64,000 bases of DNA, taken from NCBI RefSeq assembly GCF_004803505.1, contig NZ_SSWH01000004.1, positions 1 to 64,000 on the forward strand, written 5' to 3'. The position numbers were made by a program, and so were the translations under genes. Of the stretch, positions 36,172 to 41,305 are shown piece after piece. The DNA comes from Arthrobacter echini (lineage in GTDB: Bacteria > Actinomycetota > Actinomycetes > Actinomycetales > Micrococcaceae). The stretch's first letter is position 1. Every line of letters starts with the position of its first letter. Below the pieces are notes generated by a model. The model made no database searches, was not told the origin of the DNA, and saw only the letters and a program-made list of their open reading frames with translations.

Positions 36172-37706
36172 TGGCCCTCGGTCGGACCTACGCGGTCTCG
36201 CTCGTGGGCATGAACGGTCACGTGATCGAGGTGGAGGCCGACATCGGGCAGACCCTGCCGGCGTTCGTGCTCCTCGGGCTGCCCGATGCCTCGCTCAACG
36301 AGGCGAAGGACCGCATCAGGGCGGCGGCCCGGAACGCCGGTGTTCCGCTGAGCCGCAGGAAGCTCACCGTCAATCTCATCCCCGCCTCCCTGCCCAAGCG
36401 CGGTTCGGCGTTCGACCTGGCGATTGTCATGTCGGCTCTTGCCGCGGCGGGGGATGTGCGTGGGTGCGGTTCCACGGTCTTCATCGCAGAACTCGGACTG
36501 GACGGCCGACTGCGTCCGGTCAGAGGAGTGCTCCCGGCGGTCATGGCGGCTGTGGCGGCCGGACATCATCGCATCGTCGTCGCCGAGGAGAACGAGGCGG
36601 AGGCCGCACTGGTCCCCGCGGCCGAGGTCAGTTCCTTCCGCACACTTGCCGACGTGGCGCTCGCCTTCGGCGCCGACGCGTCACTGGTGAAGCTGCCCGA
36701 TCCCGTGCTCGCCGTGGCGACGGCGGCGGAGCACGCACAGCCCGAGCACCTACGTGACCTCTCGGACATCGCCGGCCAGCAGGAGGCCCGCTTCGCGCTC
36801 GAGGTCGCCGCTGCGGGCGCCCACCACCTGCTGATGGTCGGACCGCCCGGGGCGGGCAAGACCATGCTCGCCGAGCGTCTGCCCGGAATTCTGCCTGATC
36901 TCCAGGACGACGACGCGATGGAGGTCACGGCCATCCACAGTCTCAGCGGTGACAGACCCTGTGCGGAGCTGGTGCGCAAGCCTCCCTTCGAGAGCCCGCA
37001 CCACACGGCGACTCCGGCCTCCGTCATCGGGGGAGGCAGTGGTATTCCGCGCCCGGGTGCAGCATCCCGTGCCCATCGCGGTGTGCTGTTCCTCGACGAG
37101 GCGCCGGAGTACGAGCGGCGGGTCCTCGAGGCGCTGCGTGAGCCGCTGGAGAGTGGGCGACTCGTGCTGCACCGAGCCTCGGGAACGGCATCCTACCCGG
37201 CTCGTTTCCAGCTCGTGCTGGCACTGAATCCGTGTCCGTGCGGTCTCGCCAGCGGAAAGGGAACCGACTGCGTGTGCACGGCCCAGCAGCGTCGACGCTA
37301 CTTCAACAGGCTCTCCGGGCCGCTGCTGGATCGTGTGGACCTGCAACTGGCGGTGCGGCGGGTCGGACTCGCCGACTACGCCGATGCCCATGCAGCGGAG
37401 TCCTCGGCCGTGGTCGCGGCACGGGTCTCCGGTGCCCGTGGTGCCCAGCGGGAGCGGTTGAGCGCGTGGGGCATCGCCACGAATGCGGAGGTGCAGGGCC
37501 GGATCCTTCGCGACGAGCTCGCCCTGCCGCGCACCGTCACGGCCTCCCTGGACAGGGCCCTCGAACTCAATCTCGTCAGTGCGCGTGGCTGGGACAGGGT
37601 CACACGCGTCGCATGGACCATCTCGGACCTCGCCGGTCGCACCCGTCCCGATGCCGACGACGTCGTCACCGCGCTCGGGTTCCGACTGCAGGAACGGGCG
37701 GCGTGA
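36171..37706 (+). CDS. ComM/YifB-type Mg-chelatase-like AAA+ ATPase
   Basis: The 511-residue protein has an N-terminal subunit-ChlI-type domain (ALGRTYAVSLVGMNGHVIEVE), a AAA+ domain with GPPGAGKTMLAERLPGILP and FLDEAPEYERRVLEALREPLE, and a C-terminal helical Mg_chelatase_C domain. ComM is a helicase that aids branch migration during natural transformation. It is directly coupled to dprA by a one-base TGATG overlap, which fits a DNA-uptake role. Confidence 0.9.
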   Translation: MALGRTYAVSLVGMNGHVIEVEADIGQTLPAFVLLGLPDASLNEAKDRIRAAARNAGVPLSRRKLTVNLIPASLPKRGSAFDLAIVMSALAAAGDVRGCGSTVFIAELGLDGRLRPVRGVLPAVMAAVAAGHHRIVVAEENEAEAALVPAAEVSSFRTLADVALAFGADASLVKLPDPVLAVATAAEHAQPEHLRDLSDIAGQQEARFALEVAAAGAHHLLMVGPPGAGKTMLAERLPGILPDLQDDDAMEVTAIHSLSGDRPCAELVRKPPFESPHHTATPASVIGGGSGIPRPGAASRAHRGVLFLDEAPEYERRVLEALREPLESGRLVLHRASGTASYPARFQLVLALNPCPCGLASGKGTDCVCTAQQRRRYFNRLSGPLLDRVDLQLAVRRVGLADYADAHAAESSAVVAARVSGARGAQRERLSAWGIATNAEVQGRILRDELALPRTVTASLDRALELNLVSARGWDRVTRVAWTISDLAGRTRPDADDVVTALGFRLQERAA

Positions 37707-38899
37707 TGAAACCCGACAACTCCACCACACTCGCCAGGGCGGCACTCTCGCGCCTGTTCGAGCCCTCGGACAGCGTGGGACTCGGTCTGGTCGCCATGGT
37801 GGGACCCGTCGATGCCCTACGGATCGCCCGCAGGGACCTCTCGGCGGACACCACCCTCGGGTGCTCTCTGCGTGAGTTCCTCGGGATTGCCGACGGGCCG
37901 CGGGACCCGCTCCAGGACGGGCTCACCCGGTGGGCACCGCGACTGGCCGATCTTTCTCCTGAGCGTGACCTGGCCACCCTCCGCCGGCTCGGCGGTCGGC
38001 TGGTCACCCCCGAGACCGATGAGTGGCCCGAGGCCCTGGACGATCTCCAGGGCGCTGCTCCGGTGTGCCTGTGGGTGCGTGGGACGCAGTCGGTCCCGCC
38101 GCTGAGCCGTGTGGCGGCCGTCGTGGGATCCCGGGACAGCACCGCGTACGGCGACTCGGTGACAGCTGAACTGTCCTCGGGTCTGACCGAACGCGGGTAC
38201 CGGGTGATCTCCGGTGGTGCCTACGGCATCGATGCACGTGCGCACAGGGCTGCACTGGTGTCCGCCGATGGTCAGGGTCCGTCGACCATCGCGGTGCTTG
38301 CCGGCGGCATCGACAGGTACTATCCGGCGGGCAACGAGGAGCTGCTACGCAGTATCGCGCACTCGGGTCTACTGATCTCCGAAGTTCCGCCTGGGGGCTC
38401 TCCCACCCGCTGGAGATTCCTGCAGCGGAACCGGTTGATCGCAGCGCTGAGCGCTGTGACCGTCGTCGTGGAGGCGCGTTGGAGATCGGGAGCCCTGAAC
38501 ACGGCACACCACGCCGCAGGACTCGGCCGTCCTGTCGGTGCCGTGCCCGGCTCGGTCCATTCCGCCAATTCGGCCGGGTGTCACAGACTGCTGCGCGACG
38601 GGTCCGCGGTCTGCGTCACCGACGCGGCCGACGTCGTCGAACTCGCCGGCCCGTTGGGCGGCGAGCCCCTGGGCGATCGTGCACGGGCCGAGGCCGCTCC
38701 CACCCGTGACCAGGACGGCCTGACGGTACCGGATCTGCTGGTACTGGACGGGTTGCCGGTACGGAGCACGACGACCGTGGACAAACTGTCGTCCGTGGCC
38801 GGTCTCTCCGTCCGCGAGGTCATCAGCGGGCTGTCCCGCCTCGAACTCGCAGGCCTCGCATGCCGCACCGGTGAGGGGTGGCGGCGGCAGAGAAGATGA
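37706..38899 (+). CDS. dprA: DNA-processing protein DprA
   Basis: The 397-residue protein has a Rossmann-like DprA core (VAAVVGSRDSTAYGD, GGAYGIDARAHRAAL, VLAGGIDRYYPAGN, SEVPPGGSPTRWRFLQRNR) and a C-terminal winged-helix (LSVREVISGLSRLELAGL). DprA loads RecA on incoming single-stranded DNA. Position directly after comM is the usual one. The start is the ATG overlapping the comM stop. Confidence 0.92.
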   Translation: MKPDNSTTLARAALSRLFEPSDSVGLGLVAMVGPVDALRIARRDLSADTTLGCSLREFLGIADGPRDPLQDGLTRWAPRLADLSPERDLATLRRLGGRLVTPETDEWPEALDDLQGAAPVCLWVRGTQSVPPLSRVAAVVGSRDSTAYGDSVTAELSSGLTERGYRVISGGAYGIDARAHRAALVSADGQGPSTIAVLAGGIDRYYPAGNEELLRSIAHSGLLISEVPPGGSPTRWRFLQRNRLIAALSAVTVVVEARWRSGALNTAHHAAGLGRPVGAVPGSVHSANSAGCHRLLRDGSAVCVTDAADVVELAGPLGGEPLGDRARAEAAPTRDQDGLTVPDLLVLDGLPVRSTTTVDKLSSVAGLSVREVISGLSRLELAGLACRTGEGWRRQRR

Positions 38900-38954
38900 C
38901 GTGCCCGACCAGGGCTCGAGCAGCCGGTACCCGGCCGACAGCAGGAGGATCACC

Positions 38955-39584
38955 ATGGCGAGAAGCAGTGCAGGCAGCATGCGTGAACGATGGCATCAGG
39001 AGATCGAGTCCCCGGTGGGAGGACTCGTGCTCGTCGCCGAGGCAGAGACCCTCGTCGGTCTCTACCACCGGAACCACGACCCGGCACCCGAGCCTGTACG
39101 GCTCGGGTACGCCGTCCACCGGTCAGGGCCGACGCCCGCGGTGGCGGGGACGGGTAGCGGGTCCGATGCCCAGCAGCCCGTGCCGGACACCACGATGGCC
39201 GTCCTCGACCGAGCAGCACTCCAGCTCGGTGAGTACTTCGCAGGCGCCCGTCAGGGGTTCGATCTTCCTCTTGGGCTTCACGGCTCCGACTTCCAGGTAC
39301 GCGTCTGGACCGATCTGCTGAAGATTCCCTACGGCGAGCGTCGCAGCTATCGTGATCTCGCCGAACGCGAGGGGAATCCCGCCATGGGCCGGGCCATCGG
39401 AGCAGCCGTGAGAGCCAATCCGGTGTCCATCATCGTGCCGGGTCACCGAGTGGTCAGCAGTTCCGATCGACTCGTGGGTTACGCCTCCGGTATCGGGACG
39501 AAAAGCGCCCTGCTCGAGCACGAAGCCGGAACCCGCAGCCTCGTAGGTACTGTGGGAGGGGCTGCCGGCCGTGGGTCGCAGTGA
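38955..39584 (+). CDS. MGMT-like alkyltransferase homologue lacking the active-site cysteine
   Basis: The ATG follows AGGAGG. The 209-residue protein has both parts of O6-alkylguanine-DNA alkyltransferases: an N-terminal domain and the DNA-binding domain (GSDFQVRVWTDLLKIPYGERRSY, AMGRAIGAAVRANP). The suicide motif PCHR reads PGHR here (Pro162-Arg165; Gly codon GGT at 39441-39443). Without the cysteine it cannot accept alkyl groups. It therefore resembles alkyltransferase-like proteins, which usually have PWHR, bind alkylated DNA and recruit nucleotide-excision repair. A single T-to-G change from TGT would give this. It lies between dprA and xerC. Confidence 0.8.
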   Translation: MARSSAGSMRERWHQEIESPVGGLVLVAEAETLVGLYHRNHDPAPEPVRLGYAVHRSGPTPAVAGTGSGSDAQQPVPDTTMAVLDRAALQLGEYFAGARQGFDLPLGLHGSDFQVRVWTDLLKIPYGERRSYRDLAEREGNPAMGRAIGAAVRANPVSIIVPGHRVVSSSDRLVGYASGIGTKSALLEHEAGTRSLVGTVGGAAGRGSQ

Positions 39585-39637: not shown

Positions 39638-40570
39638 ATGGGAAGCGGCAGCGCAGCAGGCCCCAGGCAGTTCGAGACGGCACTCGAGATGTTCCTGGAT
39701 TACCTGACTCGGGAGCGTCATCGATCCGACCACACCAGGCGCGCCTACCAGCTGGACATCGAGCTGTTCCTCGCACATGCCTCTGGTGCTGGCGCGTCCG
39801 GTCTGCAGGACCTCGAACTGCACCACTTCCGTGCCTGGCTCGGTGCACTGGATGCCGCCGGCCTCTCGCGTTCCACGATCGCGCGGAGGGCAGCCTCGGT
39901 CCGGACCTTCATGGACTGGGCCGTCCGCGACGAGCTGGTGCCGGTGAATCCGGCACTGCGCCTTCGTGCGCCGAAGCGGGCCAGTGCTCTCCCCGAGGTG
40001 CTGAGCCGGTCGCAAGCCACAGCGCTGTTCGACACGCTCGCCGAGCGGGCCCGGTCCGGCGACCCGCGCGAGCTCCAGCGGCGCGCGATGCTCGAGCTGC
40101 TGTACGGGTCAGGGGTTCGCGTGGGGGAACTCGTCGGCCTCGACATCGACGACCTCGACCTCGAGCGCCGCACGCTCGTGGTTCTGGGCAAGGGGGAGAA
40201 GGAACGAACGGTTCCGTACGGAGTGCCCGCCGCGGAGGCCACGGATGACTGGCTGAGGCGAGGACGAAAGCAGTGGGTCACCGGAGTGAGCGGTGCCGCG
40301 TTGTTCCTGGGACCACGTGGCGGGCGAATGGGTCAGCGCGCCGTGAGGTCCCTCGTGGCGGAATCCCTCGAGGCGCTCGGGGACACGGCAGCCCGCGGTC
40401 CGCACTCCCTGCGGCACAGCGCTGCAACCCACCTGCTCGACGGCGGTGCCGATCTGCGGTCGGTGCAGGAGCTCCTGGGTCATTCGAGCCTCGCAACCAC
40501 CCAGTTGTACACGCACGTCTCGGTGGACCGCCTCCGCCAGAGCTACCAGCAGGCGCACCCCCGGGCCTGA
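39638..40570 (+). CDS. xerC: Tyrosine recombinase XerC
   Basis: The 310-residue protein has an N-terminal SAM-like core-binding domain (FETALEMFLDYLTRERHRS) and the catalytic domain with GSGVRVGELVGL (Arg), HSLRHSAATHLLDGG (His/Arg), LGHSSLATTQLYTHVS (His, Tyr). With XerD it resolves chromosome dimers at dif. The position after dprA and the full set of catalytic residues fit housekeeping XerC, not a phage integrase. ATG start. Confidence 0.9.
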   Translation: MGSGSAAGPRQFETALEMFLDYLTRERHRSDHTRRAYQLDIELFLAHASGAGASGLQDLELHHFRAWLGALDAAGLSRSTIARRAASVRTFMDWAVRDELVPVNPALRLRAPKRASALPEVLSRSQATALFDTLAERARSGDPRELQRRAMLELLYGSGVRVGELVGLDIDDLDLERRTLVVLGKGEKERTVPYGVPAAEATDDWLRRGRKQWVTGVSGAALFLGPRGGRMGQRAVRSLVAESLEALGDTAARGPHSLRHSAATHLLDGGADLRSVQELLGHSSLATTQLYTHVSVDRLRQSYQQAHPRA

Positions 40571-40716: not shown

Positions 40717-40801
40717 GTGGACAGCGTCGGTATGACACGGGCAGTGCCATCCATCACTGAAGGTCGTTGGGGAAGACGTACCTACAGCTATGGAGGATGG
40801 A

Positions 40802-41305
40802 ATGTCTGTTGTGATGGCGCGCGGTGTCCTGTACGTGCACTCGACCCCCAGTGCGCTCTGTCCGCATGTCGAGTGGGCCGTAGGGTCCGTGCTGGACCAA
40901 CGCACCGACCTGGCGTGGACCGTGCAGCCTGCTGCTCCCAGCATGCTGCGAGCGGAATTGCCCTGGTCAGGCGTGCAGGGCTCGGGTTCCCGCCTGGCAT
41001 CCGCGTTGCGCGGCTGGGCGCACCTGCGTTTCGAAGTCACCGAGGAGCAGAGCCCCGGTGCCGACGGCGGCCGGTGGTCCTACACTCCCGAACTCGGAAT
41101 CTTCCATGCGACGACGGACGTGCACGGCAACATCATGATCAGCGAGGACCGGATCCGCTACGCCTACGAGGCCGGAGCGGGAGATCCCGCAGCTGTCTAC
41201 CACGAGCTGTCGCTGGCGCTCGGCGAGTCCTGGGACGAGGAGCTCGAATCGTTCCGTCATGCCGCCGAGGGGGCCCCTGTCCGATGGCTCCACCAGGTGG
41301 GTTAG
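40802..41305 (+). CDS. DUF3145 protein
   Basis: The 167-residue protein belongs to the actinobacterial DUF3145 family: VMARGVLYVHSTPSALCPHVEWA near the N-terminus, and WSYTPELGIFHATTDVHGNIMISEDRIR in the middle. No enzymatic motif is known. The ATG at 40802 has GGAGG five bases upstream. An earlier in-frame ATG at 40790 overlaps that site and is rejected. The gene is convergent with the fab operon. Its conserved proximity to fab genes in relatives suggests a link to lipid metabolism, by inference. Confidence 0.88.
   Translation: MSVVMARGVLYVHSTPSALCPHVEWAVGSVLDQRTDLAWTVQPAAPSMLRAELPWSGVQGSGSRLASALRGWAHLRFEVTEEQSPGADGGRWSYTPELGIFHATTDVHGNIMISEDRIRYAYEAGAGDPAAVYHELSLALGESWDEELESFRHAAEGAPVRWLHQVG

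Follow-up and report, generated by a model that had tools for sequence, protein, structure and literature searches.

A conserved Ogt homologue without the acceptor cysteine, encoded between dprA and xerC in three actinobacterial genera

The analyzed window, a 64,000-nucleotide stretch of DNA from Arthrobacter echini, carried on its + strand the gene order UPF0102 (yraN), comM, dprA, Cys-less ogt, xerC, and DUF3145; all window features given below lie on this strand. The conserved upstream neighbor, dprA (37706 to 38899), was recognized by PF02481 (216.5 bits) and synteny, and the conserved downstream neighbor, a xerC-type tyrosine recombinase gene (39638 to 40570), by PF00589/PF02899 and synteny. 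The DUF3145 gene (40790 to 41305; 240 bits) followed xerC. Between dprA and xerC, separated from them by gaps of 55 nt and 53 nt, an open reading frame (38955 to 39584) encoded a 209-aa Ogt homologue, identified by its translation and by its PGHR-containing orthologues. The translation contained NPVSIIVPGHRVV. A Shine-Dalgarno-like AGGAGG (38943 to 38948), found by direct reading, was located 6 nt before the ATG at 38955, so the start codon was well placed. The PGHR motif, also read directly, occupied residues 162 to 165 (39438 to 39449), and codon 163 was GGT (39441 to 39443), encoding Gly163 where the acceptor Cys would stand. The initial annotation had described the gene as a full-length MGMT homologue with PGHR and with GGT at these positions, which agreed with the ORF reading, the domain matches, and the alignment to 4wx9 reported below. 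Scanning of the dprA-to-xerC stretch detected no promoter-like site and, on the + strand, no terminator-like site.

The protein passed the cut-offs of both PF01035 (90.1 bits, cut-off 27; residues 112 to 191) and TIGR00589 of NCBIfam (90.1 bits, cut-off 46.4). The N-terminal domain profile PF02870 scored below threshold in the window protein (15.3 bits, cut-off 21), matched 10 of the 11 sequences in the alignment of the window's genus at E≤0.1, and scored above the cut-off (30.8 bits) in the single PTHR orthologue scanned. An AlphaFold2 model, for which the window protein was combined with 50 PCHR relatives, had a mean pLDDT of 85.0 and a pTM of 0.81. The model matched DNA-bound M. tuberculosis OGT (4wx9) along all 164 residues of the latter (Z 23.2, 40% identity), and the N-terminal domain is therefore present in the window protein. 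The match to human MGMT gave Z 17-19, and that to S. pombe Atl1 covered the C-terminal domain only (83-88 residues, Z about 10.5). The window protein is thus a two-domain, full-length Ogt/MGMT homologue.

The N-terminal ribonuclease-like domain (residues 11 to 51; 38985 to 39107) was delimited by conservation, by the strands in the model, and by a pooled dN/dS of 0.16, calculated from seven close pairs of the window's genus. Its signature YH..H.P.P....LG was invariant across the window's genus. The His at residue 38 was found in 34/34 proteins of this genus; other Ogts commonly carry another residue there. A variable linker (residues 52 to 83; 39108 to 39203), with a pooled dN/dS of 0.51 and a pLDDT under 50 at residues 59 to 70, led to the C-terminal DNA-binding and active-site domain (residues 84 to 192; 39204 to 39530), which was supported by PF01035, by the model and its structure matches, and by a pooled dN/dS again of 0.16. 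Within the latter domain, a helix-turn-helix (residues 132 to 153; 39348 to 39413) was placed from model helices at 132-138 and 142-153 and from residue counts, and included Tyr132 (the flipping Tyr), Arg133, and Arg146 (the Arg finger). Residue counts also located Glu190 (39522 to 39524), the counterpart of the Cys-activating Glu in MGMT, and Asn155 (39417 to 39419), the Asn hinge, which portions of a 2023 review describe as absent from classic alkyltransferase-like proteins (ATLs) (PMC10779285).

Within the window's genus, a protein search gave matches in all but one of 35 genomes (34/35); the exception, G026, was 68% complete. The orthologue beside dprA contained PGHR in all 34 genomes with a match, the window included. 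In a second genus (g47), the relative at the same place also contained PGHR (2/2 genomes), and in a third genus (g53) it contained PTHR (29/29 genomes). Motifs were read by regular expression over the orthologue loci and cross-checked against profile hits. Residue 163 was accordingly Gly in 36, Thr in 29, and Cys in none of the 65 orthologues. A search for PGHR in several species, proposed as a check in the initial annotation, thus recovered 36 species in two genera. The residue that replaces Cys is not Gly throughout: the sister genus g53 has Thr. Mean identity was 49% within the window's genus, 39% against g53, and 35% against g47, from which the PGHR and PTHR lineages were judged to be old. 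The Gly codons at the site were GGA (12), GGC (10), GGG (8), and GGT (4) in the window's genus and GGC twice in g47, and the Thr codons in g53 were ACC (20), ACG (5), and ACT (4). Because Gly (36) and Thr (29) accounted for all 65 orthologues, with synonymous codon turnover, the loss of Cys at residue 163 is, on the codons compared, far beyond chance or base error. A sequencing error or a pseudogene was rejected in view of the other 64 orthologues, which lack the Cys as well and have intact ORFs.

No Cys-less relative was seen outside the three genera among the best 80 of 585 named matches (80/80 with Cys), among the order-level loci outside the clade (25/25 with Cys), or among the family-level loci L156-L167 (12/12 with Cys). 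Cys was also present in 28/28 class-level loci and in 17 of 18 further loci, one being unread; these sets were picked by similarity and overlap slightly, which leaves room for Cys-less forms elsewhere. Three viral relatives were found, all with PCHR, and 389 plasmid records contained relatives, all of <60% identity (motifs unread). A phage or plasmid origin was rejected on these viral and plasmid matches.

The PTHR proteins of g53 (L208-L236) had a near-invariant Cys-Cys pair (29/29 and 28/29) at positions corresponding to window residues 100-101, which precedes the C-terminal domain and is absent from the window's genus. Those examined contained a further Cys near the C-terminus, which was likewise not found in the window's genus. 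These Cys residues are perhaps a metal or disulfide site.

The position of the gene was highly conserved. dprA adjoined the Cys-less gene in 65/65 cases (34/34 in the window's genus, 2/2 in g47, and 29/29 in g53), and xerC was close downstream, in the stretch examined, in 63/65 (33/34, 2/2, and 28/29, respectively). At the exceptions, L035 (G032) and L205/L214 (G240), xerC was not found in the DNA examined downstream, which reflects a local rearrangement. For comparison with the rest of the family, dprA was surveyed in one genome from each of 31 other genera (41 genomes including further g53), of which 28 genera were left after removal of g47, g53, and g50 (no dprA was found in g50). In the DNA examined after dprA, neither tblastn nor a profile search detected an Ogt-like ORF in any of the 28 genera (one genome each), and xerC was close after dprA in 26 of them. 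Because of this absence in 28/28 other genera, the Ogt gene seems to have entered the dprA-xerC site in the stem lineage leading to the three genera.

Selection on the rest of the gene, another check proposed in the initial annotation, was evident from the dN/dS values of the two domains given above: both are under purifying selection. For the whole gene, dN/dS in eight pairs of the window's genus was 0.14-0.41, compared with 0.09-0.22 for dprA and 0.03-0.11 for xerC, and the Cys-less gene was faster than both neighbors in 8/8 pairs. In seven pairs of g53, whole-gene dN/dS was 0-0.10, below that of dprA in each pair. The Cys-less gene is therefore constrained, less than its neighbors in the window's genus and about equally in g53.

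A maximum-likelihood tree was constructed from 90 chosen rows, comprising Cys-less proteins (17/34 from the window's genus, 2/2 from g47, and 10/29 from g53), PCHR Ogts, second-type PCHR proteins, and seven ATLs. The 29 Cys-less rows formed one clade (support 100/98), which was nested within a cluster of actinobacterial PCHR Ogts (support 100/90). Masking of residue 163 left the Cys-less rows together as a single clade (SH-aLRT 98), for which a single state change is enough. The branching order of the three genera lacked resolution, and the tree is compatible with both a Gly-first and a Thr-first history. The ATL branch was 6.6 changes per column long. Joining the ATLs to the Cys-less clade gave an AU p of 0.674 and joining them to two other groups gave p of 0.607 and 0.65; none of these placements was rejected. 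In contrast, the profiles separated the groups clearly: with an Ogt profile, the median score was 178.7 bits for the Cys-less rows and 13.7 bits for ATLs, and with an ATL profile it was 15.1 bits for the 29 Cys-less rows, 15.2 bits for 41 PCHR Ogts, and 168.9 bits for ATLs. These profile scores set the Cys-less clade apart from the known ATL family, as an independent offshoot of Ogt instead of an ATL subtype. The proposal of a new ATL subtype in the initial annotation was therefore upheld only in part: an intact, full-length, Cys-less homologue with its DNA-binding and base-flipping residues was indeed found, but its derivation from Ogt appears to be separate. Membership in the classic ATLs was rejected on the N-terminal domain, the Asn hinge, and the profile score, the tree fitting either placement.

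Three PF01035 genes were identified in the genome of the window: the Cys-less gene, a gene for a PCHR protein (contig 9), and a gene for a short ATL (contig 40). Second copies sampled in other genomes of the window's genus contained Cys in 11/11 cases, and these second PCHR proteins were distant relatives of the Cys-less one (about 30-40% identity). An ATL relative was present in 28/28 genomes tested, which represented the window's genus, g47, g53, and six more genera. As a methyltransferase and an ATL coexist with it, the Cys-less Ogt is not a stand-in for a missing ATL or methyltransferase.

Active-site and DNA-binding residues were counted in the 65 Cys-less proteins (34 + 2 + 29), and compared with PCHR Ogts, of which 43 were actinobacterial and 80 were named ones. 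Residue roles were assigned by alignment to MGMT and its numbering. Arg146, Pro162, His164, Arg165, Lys183, and Glu190 were kept in 65/65 Cys-less proteins, Tyr132 in 64/65, Tyr176 in 63/65, and Asn155 in 62/65. The initial annotation had stated that the Arg, the helix-turn-helix, and the N-terminal domain are kept, which was confirmed by the invariant Arg residues, the two model helices, and the structural match over all 164 residues. At the Arg-finger position, the 43 catalytic-looking actinobacterial PCHR Ogts contained Arg (21) or Gln (22), and all Cys-less proteins contained Arg. Lys or Arg directly after the flipping Tyr (Arg133 in the window protein) was found in 64/65 Cys-less proteins, in 0/43 actinobacterial Ogts, and in 27/80 named Ogts; since these 27 PCHR Ogts from other bacteria share it, this feature does not distinguish a sensor. 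The two g47 proteins were altered in the pocket lid, with Tyr176 changed to F or S and Gly175 and Gly179 replaced, and both had His in place of Asn155. The roles of Cys, His, Glu, the Arg finger, and Tyr in MGMT are described in parts of the same review (PMC10779285).

Judged by these sequence comparisons, the gene is a conserved, probably non-catalytic Ogt paralogue in which the nucleophile is gone and the DNA-binding and base-flipping machinery is kept under selection. The clade resembles Ogt/MGMT proteins such as M. tuberculosis OGT (4wx9) in its two-domain fold and in its helix-turn-helix, Tyr, Arg finger, Asn hinge, His, Lys, and Glu; unlike them, it has a constant position, with dprA before it and xerC after it, and lacks the acceptor Cys (Gly or Thr in 65/65), so that no transfer by the known mechanism is expected. 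If only Cys can accept, alkyl transfer by the known mechanism would be excluded for the whole clade. With ATLs such as S. pombe Atl1 and E. coli ATL (YbaZ), it shares a PF01035 domain without acceptor Cys, the helix-turn-helix, Tyr, and Arg finger, and the window protein would likewise be expected to bind and not to repair. As far as portions of the review describe them, ATLs have no N-terminal domain (the initial annotation likewise stated that they lack the full domain) and no Asn hinge, and mostly have Trp at the acceptor place (PMC10779285), whereas the Cys-less clade keeps the N-terminal domain and Asn (62/65) and has Gly or Thr in place of Trp. Of the two motifs that the initial annotation had considered usual for ATLs, PWHR and PAHR, the latter was not found in the literature searched. 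Full-length proteins with a replaced Cys are also known as laboratory variants of MGMT (S. tokodaii C120S, 7csm, 7e1p); the replacement in the window clade differs from these in being natural and conserved. No report of a PGHR alkyltransferase, or of a Gly or Thr form of a Cys-less alkyltransferase, was found in the PMC literature searched, a scope outside which most subscription papers lie. In comparison with ATLs as described in portions of the review (PMC10779285), the conserved two-domain, Cys-less Ogt might tentatively be regarded as a new variety.

It appears moderately probable that the Cys-less protein is an ATL-type damage sensor derived from Ogt, which would flip and hold alkylated guanine without repairing it. 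In the proposed scheme, an Ogt-type gene seems to have come between dprA and xerC in the stem lineage of these genera and to have lost its acceptor Cys; the site is now Gly in two genera and Thr in one, and the fold, the helix-turn-helix, Tyr, the Arg finger, and His/Lys/Glu were retained under selection. The helix-turn-helix would bind the minor groove, and Tyr132 and Arg146 would flip O6-alkylguanine, or a bulky adduct of a similar kind, into the pocket, where the flipped lesion would be held reversibly for want of a nucleophile. Gly, being roomier than Cys, would suit bulky adducts, and Thr would add no good nucleophile. The long-lived complex might then pass its lesion on to nucleotide excision repair, through UvrA as in classic ATLs, or shield it, and the protein would act beside the catalytic methyltransferase and the classic short ATL. 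Transfer to UvrA follows what the review describes for ATLs (PMC10779285), and a contact of the Cys-less protein with UvrA is a guess by analogy. The sensor reading is in line with PDB 7e1p, by its title a Cys-to-Ser archaeal MGMT with an O6-methyl nucleoside. It is weakened by the faster evolution of the gene relative to dprA and xerC in the window's genus and by the classic ATLs already carried by 28/28 genomes tested, which make the need for a second sensor less than obvious. Given the loss of pocket-lid residues in g47, the ability to hold lesions may also not be shared by the whole clade.

A possible but rather doubtful alternative is that the protein has been repurposed as a DNA binder that does not recognize alkylated bases and has a structural or regulatory job with DprA, XerC, or ComM, its pocket being kept for folding. 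The fixed dprA-xerC position in three genera and the gaps of only 55 and 53 nt without a + strand terminator-like site between the genes are consistent with such a job, as are the g47 proteins, which retain the helix-turn-helix and PGHR yet lost pocket-lid residues, and the tolerance of Thr or Gly, which suggests that the identity of the residue matters little unless it is Cys. However, gene position alone is weak evidence for a shared function, and a tie to DprA or XerC drawn from it is a guess; further, conservation of the pocket-loop Tyr (63/65) and of Tyr132, Arg146, His164, and Glu190 (64-65/65) goes beyond the needs of DNA binding alone.

It is improbable that the protein serves as a partner or shield of the catalytic methyltransferase, with the N-terminal domain joining cooperative DNA clusters that recruit or spare the PCHR enzyme. 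Consistent with this, selection maintains the N-terminal domain (pooled dN/dS 0.16), and N-terminal residues serve cooperative DNA complexes of human AGT and M. tuberculosis OGT according to parts of the review (PMC10779285). A PCHR enzyme does coexist with the Cys-less protein, in 11/11 sampled second copies and in the window's own genome, but these PCHR proteins are distant (about 30-40% identity).

That the protein is still an enzyme, with His/Glu activating water to hydrolyze the alkyl group with turnover or with another residue as the acceptor, is very improbable. His164 and Glu190 were retained in 65/65 proteins even though their known task, in the portions of the review that describe it, is Cys activation (PMC10779285), and g53 has an invariant Cys-Cys pair elsewhere (29/29, 28/29). 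His and Glu are, however, also part of the pocket structure, Gly and Thr within one family fit no single chemistry, the window's genus has no conserved Cys, and no precedent was found in the literature searched (C145G with methylguanine). The specific version in which water takes the place of the thiol and His/Glu hydrolyze O6-alkylguanine with turnover, which would make a true dealkylase out of a suicide protein, is highly improbable, and the branch with Thr points to a binder rather than a dealkylase.

The other possibility raised in the initial annotation, a recently inactivated and decaying enzyme, or else a base error at 39441, is scarcely credible: a change from Cys (TGY) to Gly (GGY) takes a single base, but 65 intact Cys-less orthologues form one old clade over three genera, with four Gly codons, synonymous codon turnover, and purifying selection on both domains (dN/dS 0.16).

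If the sensor reading is true and alkylated guanine is bound, an ATL-type sensor would have arisen a second time, here from full-length Ogt and with Gly or Thr where ATLs have Trp, in bacteria already equipped with both a methyltransferase and a classic ATL. The members of the clade would be natural, long-tested variants in which to study how the N-terminal domain and the acceptor-place residue contribute to holding a lesion and passing it to excision repair. The automatic label "methylated-DNA--cysteine S-methyltransferase", which follows from a TIGR00589 score above the cut-off, would mislabel the whole clade.

The short ATL of the window's own genome (L003, 1273-1758 on the - strand of contig 40) had the motif PWWR. 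Among the classic short ATLs of the family, PWWR was found in 7/7 that were read (two of nine unread), so that the His of PWHR is replaced too; besides L003, the loci concerned were L258, L265, L266, L268, L269, L272, and L276.
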